Under the pieces are notes generated by a model, which was not told the DNA's origin, did not search any database, and worked only from the letters and a program-made list of their open reading frames with translations. The translations under genes and the position numbers were made by a program. Shown in pieces: positions 6,899-59,980 of a stretch of DNA of 64,000 nucleotides. Within the stretch, counting starts at the first letter, position 1; each line of letters opens with the position of its first letter. The stretch is from the NCBI GenBank assembly GCA_030538275.1, contig JAUNUH010000001.1:372001-436000 (forward strand), written 5' to 3'. Source of the stretch: Flavobacteriaceae bacterium (GTDB lineage: Bacteria > Bacteroidota > Bacteroidia > Flavobacteriales > Weeksellaceae).

Positions 6899-6985
6899 AT
6901 TTTTCTTTATACATGGACATATTAGATTTGAATCATAATTTTCAGTATTTAACTGGAATTTTACGTTTTTAAATTATAAATTGGA

Positions 6986-6993
6986 TAAATTTG
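6986..6993 (+). promoter_or_regulatory. Bacteroidota -7 box (TAAATTTG) before the barrel gene at 7018
   Basis: A perfect match to the TAnnTTTG consensus ends 24 nt upstream of the ATG at 7018. It overlaps the in-frame TTG at 6991, so that upstream codon could not be transcribed as a start from this promoter. No clear -33 TTTG lies at the expected spacing. Confidence 0.55.
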
Positions 6994-7017
6994 AATCCAT
7001 ATGCAAATAAAAACGTA

Positions 7018-7638
7018 ATGAAAAAAATCAGCCTATTTTTCTTATTCCTCCTCATCTTTATAAGTCTGAAAATGCAGGCCCAAGTCAACGAAAAAGGAAG
7101 TATTGAATTATCTCCGGTTGTAGGATATATCATAAGTAATTCTTTGCTCAACTCCAATTTATACGCCTCGAGTGTTCCTGGTTTTCAAGCGGGTAGTTGG
7201 GTTAATTTTTTTCTAAATAATCGTTGGAGTCTTCGAAGCGGTTTATTTTATCAAAAGATGGGAACAGAAAACGATATTCTAATTTTTAATAAAACCTATT
7301 CGGAAAGAACCCAATATTTGACGGTACCTTTATTAATAAATTATCATTTTGGCTCACAACGAAATTGGTTTGTAAATTATGGTATCAACGCCAGTTCTTT
7401 ATTGAATATAGAAGCTGATGAACACGATGGTCTTGGCTTTGAAGAGGTTACAGACAATGTAAATTCACTTCAATTCGGTTTTAATGGTGGATTGGGCTGG
7501 CAATATAGAATAAATCCGCATCTCAAAATGGTATTAGAAATGGTATCAATGGTTGGATTGACAGATATTCGAGAGGATAAAATAGGTAAAAATTCATATA
7601 TAGGATTCAACGGTGGTTTGGTTTTTAAATTAAAATAA
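7018..7638 (+). CDS. Outer-membrane beta-barrel protein (PorT/OMP_b-brl-like)
   Basis: This small (206 aa) predicted outer-membrane protein has a signal peptide MKKISLFFLFLLIFISLKM ending at a QAQ cleavage site. The mature part is built of alternating aromatic/polar strands, with repeated Gly-Gly-Leu-type turns and a terminal strand ending in hydrophobic-Lys. This matches the generic outer-membrane barrel family common in Flavobacteriia; the exact role is unknown. The frame opens at a TTG at 6991, but the ATG at 7018 sits right before the basic signal peptide, and a -7 box covers the TTG, so the ATG is chosen. It is convergent with the glycosyltransferase at 7709. Confidence 0.8.
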   Translation: MKKISLFFLFLLIFISLKMQAQVNEKGSIELSPVVGYIISNSLLNSNLYASSVPGFQAGSWVNFFLNNRWSLRSGLFYQKMGTENDILIFNKTYSERTQYLTVPLLINYHFGSQRNWFVNYGINASSLLNIEADEHDGLGFEEVTDNVNSLQFGFNGGLGWQYRINPHLKMVLEMVSMVGLTDIREDKIGKNSYIGFNGGLVFKLK

Positions 7639-7708
7639 ATTTCAAACCATTATTAAAATGAATTATTTTTTTGCTGTTTATATCTATTTAAATTTTCAAG
7701 TTAAAAGT

Positions 7709-8662
7709 TTAAAAACCAGTACTTTCAGCTACTTCAAATGAATTTCCATTGGTGTTGTTGCGCACGATAAGTTCGCCCAAAAATCCAGCTAAAAAAAGTT
7801 GTAATCCAAACACCATGCACAACATGGCTAGATAAAACCAAGGGTTGTCTGTGACCAGTTTGGCAGATACAGATTTATAGACGTAATAGAGTTTTTCTGC
7901 GCCTATCCAGAATGCCATAAAAAATCCTATGATAAACATTAGCGTACCGATAGCACCAAAAAAATGCATGGGTCTATGTCCGAATTTTCCTACAAACCAG
8001 AGGGTTATAAGATCCAAAAATCCATGAACGAATCGACTACTGCCGAATTTGGATTCTCCGTGTTTACGCGCAGTGTGTTGTACTTTTTGTTCACCAATTC
8101 GCATGAATCCAGCATTTTTTGCCAAAACAGGTATGTACCTATGCATATCACTGCGTAATTTGAGTGATTTTACTACTTCTTTACGATAGGCTTTGAGCCC
8201 GCAATTAAAATCGTGCAAATCTAGACCACTGGTCTTACGCGCAACAGTATTGAAGAATTTGGAAGGAATATTTTTACTTAAAACAGGATCTTTTCGTTTT
8301 TGTTTCCAGCCCGAAATCAAATCCATGTTTTCTTCTTGTATTCTTTGGTATAATGTTGGAATTTCTTCCGGAAAATCCTGTAAATCAGCATCCATCGTTA
8401 TTACAACATCGCCTTGAGCGCGCTCAAATGCAGCATTGAGTGCTTGAGATTTTCCGTAATTTTTCCTGAATTTTAACGCCTTTACTTCTGGAAAAGAATT
8501 GGCTAAGATTTTGATAATTTCCCATGAATTATCGGTACTTCCATCGTCGATAAAAATTATTTCGTAGGAATATTTTCCATGAAGCACTGTAGCAATGCGC
8601 TGATGCAGCTCTTGCAATGATTCTTCTTCGTTTAATAAAGGAATTACAACCGAAATATCCAT
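7709..8662 (-). CDS. Membrane-anchored GT2 glycosyltransferase (DPM1/GtrB-like)
   Basis: A family 2 glycosyltransferase of 317 aa, expected to move a sugar from a nucleotide donor to polyprenyl phosphate at the inner membrane. The GT-A domain shows DDGSTDNS (39-46) and the metal-binding DAD (91-93) followed by LQD. Two C-terminal membrane segments (about 233-255 and 275-300) match the bactoprenol glycosyltransferase architecture. The donor sugar is unknown. Two nt separate it from the upstream DUF4199 gene on the same strand, so they probably form one transcript. No O-antigen or flippase gene is beside it. Confidence 0.9.
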   Translation of the reverse strand: MDISVVIPLLNEEESLQELHQRIATVLHGKYSYEIIFIDDGSTDNSWEIIKILANSFPEVKALKFRKNYGKSQALNAAFERAQGDVVITMDADLQDFPEEIPTLYQRIQEENMDLISGWKQKRKDPVLSKNIPSKFFNTVARKTSGLDLHDFNCGLKAYRKEVVKSLKLRSDMHRYIPVLAKNAGFMRIGEQKVQHTARKHGESKFGSSRFVHGFLDLITLWFVGKFGHRPMHFFGAIGTLMFIIGFFMAFWIGAEKLYYVYKSVSAKLVTDNPWFYLAMLCMVFGLQLFLAGFLGELIVRNNTNGNSFEVAESTGF

Positions 8663-8664
8663 AA

Positions 8665-9219
8665 TTATCTTCGTGGTGAGTTTCTAATTTTCCACAGAAA
8701 AGTTACCATAAGTGCCAAACTGAGATTAAAAAAAATAACAATACCCAGAATTAAGGTAAAAGTTCTGAAACTCAATAAATTGGTTCCGCGAACTTCTTTT
8801 GAATTTACTACTTTTTCTACTTCTTCATAGGCTTCGTTATCTTTTGCTTGTAGCAAACTATAATCTAGATATTCAGTTTTGAGCTGTTCTATTCCCGCAG
8901 GATCCACATATTCATACCAAGCAAAAACACTAATCAAAGTAAAAAATCCTGCCAAAACGCCTGGAATAAACGAAAGTTTGAAAATGTTCCAGAAACTGCT
9001 AGATTTGTTTCCATCCCATTTCAACATATTATAAGCAGCTACAATAGCAAATAAAGTTGTGATTACGAATGAATTACTCACACCCGTGGTCAAAATATAC
9101 TGAAAATCAGATATTTGAAAATAATTTTGATCCTTGAAGAAAAACTGTACGATAAAAAAAACCATCATCGCCAGTAGAAATAGATAAATTGTAGAACGCC
9201 AAATGGTGTTTCTGAGCAT
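8665..9219 (-). CDS. DUF4199 integral membrane protein
   Basis: A 184-aa protein with four hydrophobic helices (about 9-29, 45-65, 84-104, 152-175) and a charged loop between the third and fourth. It resembles the Bacteroidota family DUF4199, which is typically found directly upstream of a DPM1-like glycosyltransferase, as here. Its function is not known. A structural or regulatory partner for the glycosyltransferase is inference from this two-gene arrangement. A TATCTTTG promoter box lies upstream at 9240-9247. Confidence 0.8.
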   Translation of the reverse strand: MLRNTIWRSTIYLFLLAMMVFFIVQFFFKDQNYFQISDFQYILTTGVSNSFVITTLFAIVAAYNMLKWDGNKSSSFWNIFKLSFIPGVLAGFFTLISVFAWYEYVDPAGIEQLKTEYLDYSLLQAKDNEAYEEVEKVVNSKEVRGTNLLSFRTFTLILGIVIFFNLSLALMVTFLWKIRNSPRR

Positions 9220-9239
9220 ATTCAGAGAATTTCAATTTG

Positions 9240-9247
9240 CAAAGATA
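9240..9247 (-). promoter_or_regulatory. Bacteroidota -7 box (TATCTTTG) for the DUF4199-glycosyltransferase pair
   Basis: On the minus strand TATCTTTG fits TAnnTTTG exactly and ends 20 nt before the start codon at 9219. It lies in the 52-nt gap after the nucleoside phosphorylase gene, indicating that a new transcript begins here. Confidence 0.55.
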
Positions 9248-9271
9248 AAATTTTTACGTCAATTATAGGAA

Positions 9272-10126
9272 TTATTGAGTTGTTGCCATTTCAAGTGCTG
9301 TTTCAATCATTTGGTCCACATGACTTTTATAATCGTCCAAAAATTTGCCAGTTGTACGATTGGCTATGATACAATTGAGTGATAGTGCATCGTGTCCCAA
9401 CAAACTTGCAAGTGCATAAATGGCAGAAGTTTCCATTTCGAAATTATCGAGTCCGCATTGGTGCAATCGGTCCAGAAAAACAGGATCCATAGCGTGTAGC
9501 CTTACCTCTCTACCTTGTGGTCCATAAAAACCCGAAAGTGAACCTGTATTTCCTGCAACAAATCCTTGGTCAAAGTGAGAGAACAAATCTGGATTGCATT
9601 CAGAAAAATAGAGTAGAGGTAAAAGGTTGGAATATGGAAAATTTTTAATAAAATCATCTCTAAAATCAGCATCTTTATGCGCTGGATAAAATTGCATTAA
9701 TCCATCAAAACCCGTGCTATATCTAGATTTTACGAAACTACCTGCATCTATTTCTGGATTTACCGAGCCAGAGGTTCCCAAACGAATCAATCGTAATTTA
9801 GTTTTATTTTCTTTGATTTGACGTGTTTCTAAATCTATATTTACCAAGGCGTCGAGTTCGGTAAGTACGATATCAATATTATCAGTTCCTATACCGGTAG
9901 AAATCACAGTGAATCGCTTACCGTTTTTAGTTCCGGTGTGAGTCACAAATTCGCGTTTACTTTTTTGAATTTCAATTGTGTCAAAAAAGTTTGAAACTCG
10001 CGGAACCCTTTCTGGATCGCCTACCAAAAAAATGGATTCTGCTATATCTTCTGGTAATAAATTTAAATGATAAATACTTCCATCGTTATTTAATGGTAAT
10101 TCAGATGCTGCAATTATTTTATTCAT
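9272..10126 (-). CDS. Nucleoside phosphorylase (uridine phosphorylase-like)
   Basis: This enzyme cleaves a nucleoside with phosphate to base plus ribose-1-phosphate in salvage or catabolism. The 284-aa protein has the PNP/UDP family 1 fold: GDPERV (36-41, phosphate binding), GTSGSV (117-122) and NFEMET (228-233), whose Glu contacts the ribose. The phosphate-site and EMET motifs fit uridine phosphorylase better than purine nucleoside phosphorylase, but base preference is an inference. It is longer than E. coli Udp (about 253 aa). It lies 19 nt downstream of the SUI1 gene on the same strand. Confidence 0.85.
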   Translation of the reverse strand: MNKIIAASELPLNNDGSIYHLNLLPEDIAESIFLVGDPERVPRVSNFFDTIEIQKSKREFVTHTGTKNGKRFTVISTGIGTDNIDIVLTELDALVNIDLETRQIKENKTKLRLIRLGTSGSVNPEIDAGSFVKSRYSTGFDGLMQFYPAHKDADFRDDFIKNFPYSNLLPLLYFSECNPDLFSHFDQGFVAGNTGSLSGFYGPQGREVRLHAMDPVFLDRLHQCGLDNFEMETSAIYALASLLGHDALSLNCIIANRTTGKFLDDYKSHVDQMIETALEMATTQ

Positions 10127-14752: not shown

Positions 14753-14992
14753 TTATTTTTTATAAAATTCATCAATTTCTTGCGCTAAATCTTGGTCTTT
14801 TTGGGTTACCTTATTTCCAGCGTCGTGCGTTGAAAGTTTGATGGTAACCTGTTTGTAAACATTGTACAATTCTGGATGATGATTTGCTTTTTCTGCAGCT
14901 AATGCCACACGAGTTATAAATGCAAATGCTTCGCTAAAATCCTTAAATTCAAATTCTTTTACGAGTTTATTATTTTCTTCTTTCCAAGCCAT
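14753..14992 (-). CDS. phhB: Pterin-4a-carbinolamine dehydratase
   Basis: This enzyme dehydrates 4a-hydroxytetrahydropterin formed by aromatic amino acid hydroxylases, so that the cofactor can be recycled. The 79-aa protein carries the full family signature: EKANHHPE (about 34-41), a Tyr five residues on, and STHDAG (54-59), with the catalytic His pair at 38-39. Length is shorter than the usual 95-110 aa, missing the N-terminal strand region. With the BH4-type PTPS at 52012 and fumarylacetoacetase at 58736 it points to phenylalanine catabolism. Confidence 0.93.
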
Positions 14993-51499: not shown

Positions 51500-52012
51500 A
51501 TGACAGAAGAAAAAGTGGTTTTAATTAACCGAAATGACGAAGTTTTGGGTTTGATGGAAAAACAACAAGCGCATATTGCTGGTTTGCTACACCGCGCTTT
51601 TTCCGTATTTATTTTTAATGAAAAAGGCGAATTACTTTTACAACAACGCGCGCTAGAAAAATACCATACACCAGGTTTATGGACCAACACATGTTGCAGC
51701 CATCCACGTGAAGGCGAATCCTATCTAGATGCAGCCAACCGTCGTTTGATGGAAGAAATGGGAATTGCATGTAATCTAGAATATTTGTTTGAATTTATTT
51801 ACAAAGCAGATGTAGGCGAGGGGCTTACAGAGCACGAGCTTGATACGGTTTTTCGCGGAGTCTATAATGACGAACCTGTGATAAACCCTAGCGAAGTTGC
51901 CAATTATAAATGGATGGATTTTGAAGAATTAAAAAAGGATATCGTAGAAAATCCAGAAAGATATACGCCGTGGTTCAAAATTATTTTTAATCAATATTTA
52001 GAACATTTATAA
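51500..52012 (+). CDS. idi: Isopentenyl-diphosphate delta-isomerase (type I)
   Basis: Interconverts IPP and DMAPP for isoprenoid synthesis. The 170-aa Nudix-like type I enzyme contains the catalytic Cys in NTCCSHP, the Nudix box (REGESYLDAANRRLMEEMG), and a conserved acidic ELDTVF segment. Its TAA overlaps the ATG of the next gene by 1 nt (TAATG), so the two are translationally linked. Confidence 0.96.
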   Translation: MTEEKVVLINRNDEVLGLMEKQQAHIAGLLHRAFSVFIFNEKGELLLQQRALEKYHTPGLWTNTCCSHPREGESYLDAANRRLMEEMGIACNLEYLFEFIYKADVGEGLTEHELDTVFRGVYNDEPVINPSEVANYKWMDFEELKKDIVENPERYTPWFKIIFNQYLEHL

Positions 52013-52422
52013 TGCGTGTAACGGTTCATAGAAAAGCCCATTTCAACGCAGCACATAGACTGTATAATTCTGCATGGGACGACGAAAAGAACTTTAAAAC
52101 ATTTGGTAAATGTTCCTACCCAAATTATCACGGTCATAATTATGAAATGATAGTAAGTGTAACAGGTGAAATCGACCCTGTGACGGGTTTTGTAATAAAT
52201 CTGGATGTATTGAAACGAATTATTTATGAAGAAATTGAAGTGTATTTTGACCATAAAAATTTGAATCTGGATTTAATAGAATTCAAAGATAAAATTCCAA
52301 CAGCAGAAAATATTGTCGTATTGATTTGGAATAGAATTCGTTACCGACTTGATGATCATATTGATTTGAAAATTACCCTGTATGAAACACCAAGGAATTT
52401 TGTAACTTACGATGGAAATTAA
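52012..52422 (+). CDS. 6-pyruvoyl-tetrahydropterin synthase family enzyme, BH4-type motif
   Basis: A 136-aa zinc enzyme of COG0720. Zinc ligands are His15 (FNAAH), His40 and His42 (HGH). The catalytic Cys34 lies five residues before HGH (C-x5-HGH), the spacing of mammalian-like PTPS making tetrahydrobiopterin precursors; QueD of the queuosine pathway has C-x3-HGH. Automated pipelines would often call it queD. Since phhB (14753) recycles the hydroxylase cofactor, I favour a tetrahydropterin role; dual function is possible. It overlaps idi by 1 nt and precedes gcvT by 15 nt. Confidence 0.85.
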   Translation: MRVTVHRKAHFNAAHRLYNSAWDDEKNFKTFGKCSYPNYHGHNYEMIVSVTGEIDPVTGFVINLDVLKRIIYEEIEVYFDHKNLNLDLIEFKDKIPTAENIVVLIWNRIRYRLDDHIDLKITLYETPRNFVTYDGN

Positions 52423-52437
52423 AACATATATATATTT

Positions 52438-53514
52438 ATGAAAAAAACAGCATTGAATGAAGTGCACAAAGATTTAGGTGCTAAAATGGTTGATTATGCC
52501 GGGTTTGAGATGCCTGTACAATATGCCGGTGTAACCCAAGAACATATGGCAGTGAGGGAAGGCGTTGGAGTTTTTGATGTAAGCCATATGGGACAATTTA
52601 GAGTATCTGGAGAAAATGCCGAAACTTTTTTACAGAAAATTACCACAAATGATGTTTCAAAGGTAAAAATCGGGCAGGCGCAATACTCGTGTATGACCAA
52701 TGAACATGGTGGAATTATTGATGATTTGATCATCTACAAAATGGATAATTCTGATTATATGCTGGTTGTAAACGCTGGTTGTCTAGATAAGGACTGGGAA
52801 TGGATTAACAAACAAAATACAGAAGGTGCCTTTATAGAAAATCAAAGCGAAAACACGGCATTACTCGCAATCCAAGGTCCAGATGCCATCAAATCAATGC
52901 AAGCCTTGACAGATGTAAACCTATCAGAAATCAAATTTTACAACTTTGTAGTTGGTAATTTTGCAGGAATTGAAGATGTTGTGATCTCTGCCACTGGCTA
53001 TACGGGATCTGGCGGATTCGAAATTTATTTTGCTCGAGAAGATGCTGCTCAAATGTGGGAAAAAGTTTTTGAGGCAGGAAAAGAGTATAATATAGTTCCA
53101 TGCGGTCTGGCGTCTAGAGATACCTTGCGCCTAGAAAAAGGCTACTGTCTATATGGCAATGATATAGATGAAACTACAACACCACTAGAATCTGGATTGG
53201 GATGGATTACCAAATTGAACAAAGATTTTATTGGAAAAGAAGAACTTGTAAAACAGAAGGAAGAAGGGTTGAAGCGTAAATTAGTCGCTTTTAAAATGAT
53301 TGACAAAGGTGTGCCTAGAAAAGATTATGCTATTGTAGATAATCAAGGAAACCAAATAGGTCAAGTAACTTCTGGTACACAGTCTCCAATATTGAAAGAG
53401 GGAATAGGCATGGGATATGTTACAATAGAAAATGCAGAGCCAGGTAGAGAAATATTTATCCAAGTGAGAAATAAAAATTTGAAAGCAGAAGTGGTTAAAA
53501 CGCCTTTTCTGTAA
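52438..53514 (+). CDS. gcvT: Glycine cleavage system T protein (aminomethyltransferase)
   Basis: Transfers the aminomethyl carbon of glycine from the lipoyl H protein to tetrahydrofolate, releasing ammonia. The 358-aa protein has FEMPVQY, FDVSHMGQF, YSCMTNEHGGIIDD and GLGWITKLNK, the GcvT folate-binding pattern. gcvH and gcvP are not adjacent. It is followed by a strong terminator at 53537-53573. Confidence 0.96.
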   Translation: MKKTALNEVHKDLGAKMVDYAGFEMPVQYAGVTQEHMAVREGVGVFDVSHMGQFRVSGENAETFLQKITTNDVSKVKIGQAQYSCMTNEHGGIIDDLIIYKMDNSDYMLVVNAGCLDKDWEWINKQNTEGAFIENQSENTALLAIQGPDAIKSMQALTDVNLSEIKFYNFVVGNFAGIEDVVISATGYTGSGGFEIYFAREDAAQMWEKVFEAGKEYNIVPCGLASRDTLRLEKGYCLYGNDIDETTTPLESGLGWITKLNKDFIGKEELVKQKEEGLKRKLVAFKMIDKGVPRKDYAIVDNQGNQIGQVTSGTQSPILKEGIGMGYVTIENAEPGREIFIQVRNKNLKAEVVKTPFL

Positions 53515-58735: not shown

Positions 58736-59980
58736 ATGAAATCATTTATTCCTTATGCATCCGATTCGGATTTTTCCATTTACAATATACCATTTGGGGT
58801 AGCTTATATAGAAGATGAGTACCCTGCATGCGTTACTAGAATAGGAGATACTGTTATAGATTTGTCCTATTTGTTTGACGAAGGATATTTTGATGAATTC
58901 GAATTGGAAGAAAATGTTTTTGAAGCACTTGTATTGAATCCATTCATCGAATTAGGAAAGAAGATAACGGTTCCGATGAGAGAAAAAATTCAACAATTAT
59001 TGTTGGAAGGTTCTGCCCTAGAAAACGATTCGGAAACCAGGGAAAACGCATTTTTTGCTATTGAAAATGTTGAAATGCTTTTGCCTGTTCACGTTCCAAA
59101 TTATACTGATTTTTACAGTTCGGTAGAGCATGCCACCAACGTAGGAAAAATGTTTCGTGATCCAGAAAATGCACTTTTACCCAATTGGAAACACCTACCT
59201 GTGGGATATCATGGCAGAGCCTCGTCCATAGTTGTGAGCGGCACGGCATTGCGCAGACCCAATGGGCAAACTCAACCTCAAGCCAATCAGCCACCGGTAT
59301 TTGGAGAAAGCAAAAGACTGGATTTTGAATTGGAAATGGCATTTATCACTTCTACTTATACCAATTTGGGCGAATCCATCTCAACTGAAGATGCAGAAAA
59401 TCATATTTTTGGAATGTTGATTTTTAATGATTGGAGCGCCAGAGATATTCAAAAATGGGAATATGTTCCTTTGGGACCATTCTTGGCCAAAAATTTCGGT
59501 TCTTCTGTTTCTCCTTGGATTGTTACTTTGGAGGCGCTTGAGCCATTTCGTGTTGCAGGACCGGTTCAGGAACCAGAAGTTTTGGATTATTTAAAATACG
59601 AAGGAGACAAAAATTTTGATATCAATTTACAAGTCGGTATTTCTCCTCAAAATCAAGCTGAAAGCATTATTTGTAATTCTAATTTCAAATATATGTATTG
59701 GAATATGTCGCAACAATTGGCACATCATACCATCAATGGGTGTAATATAGAAGTGGGTGATATGTATGCCAGCGGCACCATTTCGGGTAAAGATGAAAAC
59801 AGCTATGGATCTATGCTGGAGCTGAGCTGGAGTGGAAAAAATCCTCTCAAATTACAAAATGGAGAGGAGCGAACTTTTATCGAAGATTATGATACTGTGA
59901 GTATGTATGCTTGGTGCGAAAAAGATGGGAAAAGAATAGGTTTTGGAAAAGTTGAAACCCAAATTCTACCTGCAAAATAA
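58736..59980 (+). CDS. fahA: Fumarylacetoacetase
   Basis: Cleaves fumarylacetoacetate to fumarate and acetoacetate, the last step of tyrosine breakdown. The 414-aa enzyme has an N-terminal SH3-like domain (about 1-115), then DFYSSVEHATNVG, the catalytic-His motif PVGYHGRASS, RLDFELEMAF with metal-binding Glu residues, and DWSARDIQKWEY. Full length. Other pathway genes (hpd, hmgA) are not beside it. The FMN reductase gene follows after 11 nt. Confidence 0.95.
   Translation: MKSFIPYASDSDFSIYNIPFGVAYIEDEYPACVTRIGDTVIDLSYLFDEGYFDEFELEENVFEALVLNPFIELGKKITVPMREKIQQLLLEGSALENDSETRENAFFAIENVEMLLPVHVPNYTDFYSSVEHATNVGKMFRDPENALLPNWKHLPVGYHGRASSIVVSGTALRRPNGQTQPQANQPPVFGESKRLDFELEMAFITSTYTNLGESISTEDAENHIFGMLIFNDWSARDIQKWEYVPLGPFLAKNFGSSVSPWIVTLEALEPFRVAGPVQEPEVLDYLKYEGDKNFDINLQVGISPQNQAESIICNSNFKYMYWNMSQQLAHHTINGCNIEVGDMYASGTISGKDENSYGSMLELSWSGKNPLKLQNGEERTFIEDYDTVSMYAWCEKDGKRIGFGKVETQILPAK

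Follow-up and report, generated by a model that had tools for sequence, protein, structure and literature searches.

The window, by which is meant the whole stretch of 64,000 nucleotides analysed, contains a complete gene for a 136-residue protein that is assigned here to the 6-pyruvoyl-tetrahydropterin synthases (PTPS) of type II. Its ATG start shares one base with the stop codon of idi, the gene that precedes it (Table 1). Placement of idi within 200 bases of the PTPS-II gene, on the same strand, recurs in 76 of 80 named loci (the best 80 of at least 587 matches), and to our knowledge no metabolic link connects idi with PTPS-II or the pterin pathway. Among those same 80 best matches the nearest named relative is from Empedobacter brevis (71%), and neither a gene for aromatic amino acid hydroxylase (phhA) nor the reductase clade described below lies near PTPS in any of the 80 loci, some of whose flanks end at contig ends. 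A pterin-4a-carbinolamine dehydratase and a fumarylacetoacetase, which an earlier note on this DNA had placed in the window, are both confirmed by their profile scores.

Table 1. Positions of the genes and motifs discussed, in window coordinates or, where a contig (C) is given, in the genome that holds the window (G000)
Feature	Position	Strand	Evidence
idi, type I isopentenyl-diphosphate isomerase, directly upstream of PTPS	51500..52012	+	NF002995, 172.4 bits (cut-off 127)
PTPS-II-type 6-pyruvoyl-tetrahydropterin synthase (putative)	52012..52422	+	PF01242, solved relatives, trees, predicted model
Cys34 codon, presumed catalytic cysteine	52111..52113	+	translation; invariant in 22 relatives
H40-G41-H42 codons, presumed zinc-binding motif, 5 residues past Cys34	52129..52137	+	translation; invariant in 22 relatives
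gcvT, downstream neighbour, outside the pathway	52438..53514	+	NF001567, 475.3 bits (cut-off 300)
Pterin-4a-carbinolamine dehydratase, 79 aa, cofactor recycling	14753..14992	-	PF01329, E 1.6e-27; NF002017, 82.4 bits (cut-off 80)
Fumarylacetoacetase, last step of tyrosine breakdown	58736..59980	+	TIGR01266, 543.9 bits (cut-off 375.3)
Long-form aromatic amino acid hydroxylase, phhA	C11, about 111.8-113.6 kb		NF010657, 840 bits (cut-off 346)
HPPD	C11:345517-346596		458.6 bits (cut-off 277)
Candidate short-chain reductase	C5:127698-128396	-
FolB	C9:27859-28188		102.8 bits
C-x3-HGH paralog of COG0720	C2:238244-238699 (L002:1486-1941)		85.4 bits (QueD cut-off 89.25)

Motif, fold and tree position of the window PTPS

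The window PTPS is a full-length member of PF01242 (E 1.1e-30, 106.5 bits against a cut-off of 22.4), and its motif is therefore properly placed in a real homologue and is no chance match. The translation bears out the five-residue spacing between Cys34 and HGH (40-42) read earlier: the motif is FGKC34-SYPNY-H40GH42-NY, that is, C-x5-HGH, a spacing also found in all 80 of the named relatives (again the best 80 of at least 587 matches). Seven residues (H15, C34, H40, H42, D80, H81 and E125) are kept in alignment with rat and human PTPS and are invariant among 22 aligned relatives; in the rat enzyme we take them to be zinc ligands, catalytic residues and the pterin anchor.

By sequence the best solved relatives are human (E 6.7e-37), rat (4.6e-35) and Caenorhabditis elegans (6.6e-27) PTPS, and a Foldseek search with an AlphaFold2 model of the window PTPS (mean pLDDT 96.7) ranked human PTPS first (TM 0.95, rmsd 1.1, 46% identity in the Foldseek alignment). 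The mammalian enzymes (human 3i2b, rat 1b66) share with the window protein its length, fold and C-x5-HGH, with the histidines, the D-H pair and the glutamate aligned and kept. Unlike them, the window gene is bacterial and stands beside idi, and it belongs to a set of 59 related genomes in which no gene passes the NCBI sepiapterin reductase cut-off. A parallel in setting, by description rather than by sequence, is the PTPS-II of Synechococcus PCC 7942, for which passages of PMC5041015 report C-x5-HGH together with a second COG0720 paralog in the same genome, as is found here. The product of cyanobacterial PTPS-II goes to pterin glucosides, according to passages of PMC3546692, whereas the present genome instead has a phenylalanine hydroxylase.

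The family label would make the gene a QueD (PTPS-I), producing 6-carboxy-tetrahydropterin for preQ0 and queuosine. QueD belongs to the same superfamily, shares the fold and, as stated in passages of PMC5041015, uses the same substrate as PTPS; the match of the window protein to E. coli QueD structures is weaker but significant (about E 1e-6, and a TM of about 0.77 for the predicted model). The E. coli enzyme (6-carboxy-tetrahydropterin synthase, 4ntk) nonetheless differs in motif spacing, C-x3-HGH rather than C-x5-HGH, and in tree position, QueC was not found in the genome, and a separate C-x3 paralog is present there. The window PTPS also scores below the cut-off of the NCBI QueD equivalog model TIGR03367 (59.8 against 89.25 bits), as it does with the NCBI general family model (88.2 against 125.5), and thus the QueD model alone would not call the gene queD. 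The earlier suspicion that a default queD label would be wrong is upheld in that the gene does not appear to be QueD, but the QueD model by itself produces no such label. Motif, QueD model score, tree and missing QueC together speak against the label, and the QueD reading is very improbable.

Placement in trees was based on 73 PF01242 matches in 54 of the 59 related genomes (the present one included), of which 25 proteins in 19 genomes read C-x5-HGH, 47 read C-x3-HGH and one is degenerate (L107, a C-x3-HGY protein of G045, used in neither tree). The first tree unites 44 C-x3 proteins, each from a different genome, in a group (99/95) that is joined at 94/87 by E. coli QueD, which like L106 has a very long branch; the window PTPS and mammalian PTPS fall on the C-x5 side, which has little resolution within it. 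The second tree was built with the motif removed and without the long branches (L106, E. coli QueD, C. elegans PTPS and L105); from the 43 rows then left in the large C-x3 group, 22 were sampled. In this tree the branch that parts these 22 C-x3 proteins from the 29 others, among them mammalian PTPS, has support of 100/100. The window PTPS is thus placed on the side of the mammalian enzymes, separate from the group of C-x3 proteins that E. coli QueD joins, and no clustering with proven QueD enzymes was seen in the tree.

The use of spacing as a subfamily marker, for which passages of PMC5041015 define PTPS-II by C-x5-HGH and link it to tetrahydrobiopterin, fits the window PTPS but fares less well as a general rule. 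Two C-x3 proteins, L013 (of G040) and L030 (of G053), nest within PTPS-II in each of the two trees, where the support is starred; they likely became C-x3 by loss of two residues within PTPS-II and would be exceptions to the published motif rule. A single C-x3 clade is not rejected by the AU test (p 0.113), which leaves them likely, unproven exceptions, and the proposition that spacing alone decides the subfamily is weakened accordingly. These two genes (L013:1498-1893 and L030:1498-1911) are the only COG0720 genes found in their genomes, which are 88% and 86% complete, respectively, and have both phhA and the reductase.

Some bacteria use COG0720 proteins in place of FolB (passages of PMC5041015), and a protein of this PTPS-III type would make 6-hydroxymethyl-dihydropterin for folate synthesis. 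Four related C-x5 proteins do carry E-x2-HGH as well, but the window protein reads P37-N38-Y39-HGH, with P where E is expected, and FolB is present in its own genome and in 56 of the 59 genomes searched. The motif and the presence of FolB speak against a FolB bypass, which is very improbable and the least credible of the readings considered.

The window gene therefore most likely makes the precursor of the cofactor that human PTPS serves and not the tRNA-modification precursor of the family label. In passages of PMC5041015, COG0720 is given as a standard case of wrong labels; for the window gene the evidence supports 6-pyruvoyl-tetrahydropterin synthase (PTPS-II), rather than queD, as the probable proper label. 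Judged by its sequence, the protein is an unremarkable addition to a known subfamily, and the result would be an annotation correction and no new system. Among the papers listed in literature searches that largely left out subscription journals, none dealt with flavobacterial PTPS-II or with how flavobacteria make tetrahydrobiopterin, which does not prove that there is none.

Hydroxylase and reductase in the genome and its relatives

The genome that holds the window (2.49 Mb in 20 contigs, 95% complete) has the aromatic hydroxylase that a tetrahydropterin cofactor could serve. Its long-form phhA is well above the model cut-off, with the phenylalanine-4-hydroxylase 7vgm as best solved relative (E 4e-155), and the refuting case named in the earlier note, a genome without an aromatic hydroxylase, does not apply. 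HPPD lies on the same contig as the hydroxylase, which makes a route from phenylalanine to fumarylacetoacetate plausible. As a marker of the pathway HPPD was rejected, for it is over its cut-off in 43 of the 59 genomes.

The best explanation, and a highly probable one, is that PTPS-II supplies 6-pyruvoyl-tetrahydropterin for the synthesis of tetrahydrobiopterin used by an aromatic amino acid hydroxylase. In this scheme the zinc-dependent PTPS-II encoded in the window would convert dihydroneopterin triphosphate, the FolE product, to 6-pyruvoyl-tetrahydropterin, which the candidate reductase on C5 would reduce to a tetrahydrobiopterin. The cofactor would serve the long-form hydroxylase in turning phenylalanine into tyrosine and would be recycled by the dehydratase of the window, and HPPD and fumarylacetoacetase would break the tyrosine down.

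Co-occurrence among the 59 genomes argues for the scheme. PTPS-II is present in 21 (19 by motif, together with the two nested C-x3 proteins) and phhA in 15; a PTPS-II-clade protein accompanies phhA in every one of the 15, and 38 genomes are without both (Fisher p 1.4e-9, which for kindred genomes is not a true probability). The six PTPS-II genomes in which phhA is missing are G009, G022, G039, G041, G049 and G054, of which G009 is only 83% and G039 only 76% complete; given these six, the cofactor may have users besides the hydroxylase. The dehydratase was discarded as a pathway marker: it is found in eight of the 59 genomes, in only three of the 15 with phhA (p 0.41) and in neither congener.

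A wider sample comprised 395 genomes of the phylum, 98 of them of the same class, with counts made by hand from tables. In the class, the PTPS-II profile matches 85 of the 98 genomes, and phhA is found in 60, all with a PTPS-II profile match, and in none of the 13 without one. In the phylum the profile matches 369 of the 395 genomes (the motif in these being read solely at the loci fetched), phhA is found in 128 and the reductase clade in 103; three of the 128 phhA genomes (G278, G342 and G437) are without a PTPS-II match. With 369 profile matches against 128 hydroxylases other uses must exist, and the phylum-level association says little. An apparent PTPS fusion in G061, a frame of 641 aa, was dismissed, as the frame merely extends upstream of an ordinary PTPS start.

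Such counts give some weight to the view that the window gene is a genuine PTPS whose tetrahydropterin goes mainly to another use, such as a monooxygenase, a pterin glycoside or a redox pool, which the hydroxylase merely shares; the six PTPS-II genomes that are without phhA, yet keep the reductase, point the same way. Set against it are the presence of PTPS-II in every phhA genome of the 59 and the gene clusters that join these functions in some relatives, and a different main use is unlikely. Synthesis of tetrahydrobiopterin for the hydroxylase, which the earlier note had proposed, is thus favoured by the hydroxylase gene, by co-occurrence and by the clusters. If tetrahydrobiopterin synthesis is indeed the role of PTPS-II, the pathway would be common in much of the phylum, as against the only about 50 COG0720 proteins predicted for it in passages of PMC5041015 (2016).

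The step after PTPS calls for a reductase, and the sepiapterin reductase model TIGR01500 names none: its cut-off of 206.55 is reached by no gene in the 59 genomes, the candidate of the present genome scoring 59.2 bits. The earlier note had suggested a search for sepiapterin reductase-like genes. A candidate clade, defined by a gene of the G012 cluster described below, has members in 20 of the 21 genomes with PTPS-II, against none of the other 38 (p 7.5e-15, again among kindred genomes). The sole PTPS-II genome of the 59 without it is G038, and a comparison of its TIGR01500 match (L043) with the stretch of 2bd0 gave nothing at E 1e-5. The sepiapterin reductase structure 2bd0, from Chlorobium tepidum, is only distantly similar to the present candidate (29% over 194 residues), whose best solved relatives are other, general short-chain reductases.

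In the class sample the clade (E 1e-40 or better) occurs in 53 of the 85 PTPS-II-positive genomes and in none of the 13 negatives; all 40 genomes of one family (f3) have it, as do 12 of the 44 positive genomes in other families. The 32 positive genomes without the clade would use another reductase, or none. Elsewhere in the phylum two genomes (G174 and G389) carry the clade without a PTPS-II match. From co-occurrence and gene clusters we infer that the clade acts in this pathway. That it is kept in the six phhA-less genomes speaks, if not decisively, for a part in synthesis, as sepiapterin reductase, over one in recycling; if the former holds, the clade would be a candidate for the missing sepiapterin reductase.

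Gene order in some relatives joins the same functions. The surroundings of the window gene itself, with idi and gcvT, and of its 80 best named matches, where idi and no pterin gene is the regular neighbour, speak against the scheme. In G012 (L053) the reductase (9160-9927), PTPS-II (8732-9160) and phhA (6955-8715) adjoin on one strand, and phhA adjoins the reductase in G040, G042, G053 and G055; in G038 PTPS-II and phhA are about 3.4 kb apart with two opposite-strand genes between them. Twenty more distant loci, 15 outside the class and five inside, were hand-picked from the list of profile matches, four of them for a nearby phhA. Close to PTPS in 19 of the 20 is folE; the C-x5 motif is present in 14 and the order PTPS-folE-reductase in 13 of the 15 loci outside the class, and the reductase in none of the five inside (tblastn E 1e-15). 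A folE gene near a COG0720 gene fits QueD equally, and the telling partners are the reductase and phhA. Both are present at L117, in the order phhA, two peroxiredoxins, PTPS, folE, reductase, with FolE and the hydroxylase confirmed by Pfam; the best solved relative of its reductase is the sepiapterin reductase 2bd0 (E 3.4e-34, 34% identity).

Several of the picked loci have features of their own. Two peroxiredoxin-like genes lie between phhA and PTPS-folE-reductase at L117 (3100-4043, both Pfam AhpC-TSA), and two precede PTPS-folE-reductase at L123 (682-1645, the first Pfam AhpC-TSA and the second identified by eye). At L131 (G202, about 1713-2111) a PTPS-like gene in a PTPS-folE-reductase locus has aspartate in place of the cysteine (GKDNNPNW-HGHNY), and a tandem pair of differing C-x5-HGH PTPS genes stands near folE at both L132 (G324) and L133 (G308).

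The C-x3-HGH paralog and QueC

The earlier note had proposed a search for a second COG0720 gene with C-x3-HGH beside queC and queE. Such a gene does exist in the present genome, falling just under the QueD cut-off (Table 1), but it is not beside queC, and a PF06508 search of this 95% complete genome did not find QueC. The one gene that PF06508 matches there (20.8 bits; 23.7 with neighbours, which formally passes the cut-off of 22) proved to be TilS (182.3 bits, cut-off 93.6). With QueC missing, the C-x3 paralog is not shown to be QueD. Among the 59 genomes PF06508 is formally over 22 bits in 41, mostly through partial matches in longer frames, and exceeds 100 bits only in G019 and G052; the G052 gene is under the NCBI QueC cut-off (94.3 against 150.3).

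A queC-queD-queE cluster does occur in G019 (L109, 73-3193), next to genes that resemble queuine transferase and ParB; all of these genes match phage families, and the cluster looks like a phage-type deazaguanine cluster. The common C-x3 gene is also present in that genome (L099), apart from the QueC cluster. It is possible, if somewhat doubtful, that neither COG0720 gene of this lineage is QueD, that the window gene feeds a tetrahydrobiopterin pathway in which the reductase clade does the work of sepiapterin reductase as an unrecognised non-orthologue, and that the widespread C-x3 paralog has an undescribed pterin-related function. The paralog without QueC is one of three notable aspects of the analysis, with the commonness of PTPS-II in the phylum and the candidate reductase.

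Of the 59 genomes, 44 keep a C-x3-HGH protein, about 150 aa long, although QueC-like matches above 100 bits occur in only two and FolB in 56, and the paralog of this large group is absent from 10 of the 21 with PTPS-II. An LpxH-like gene lies in the flank of 30 of the 44 C-x3 loci.
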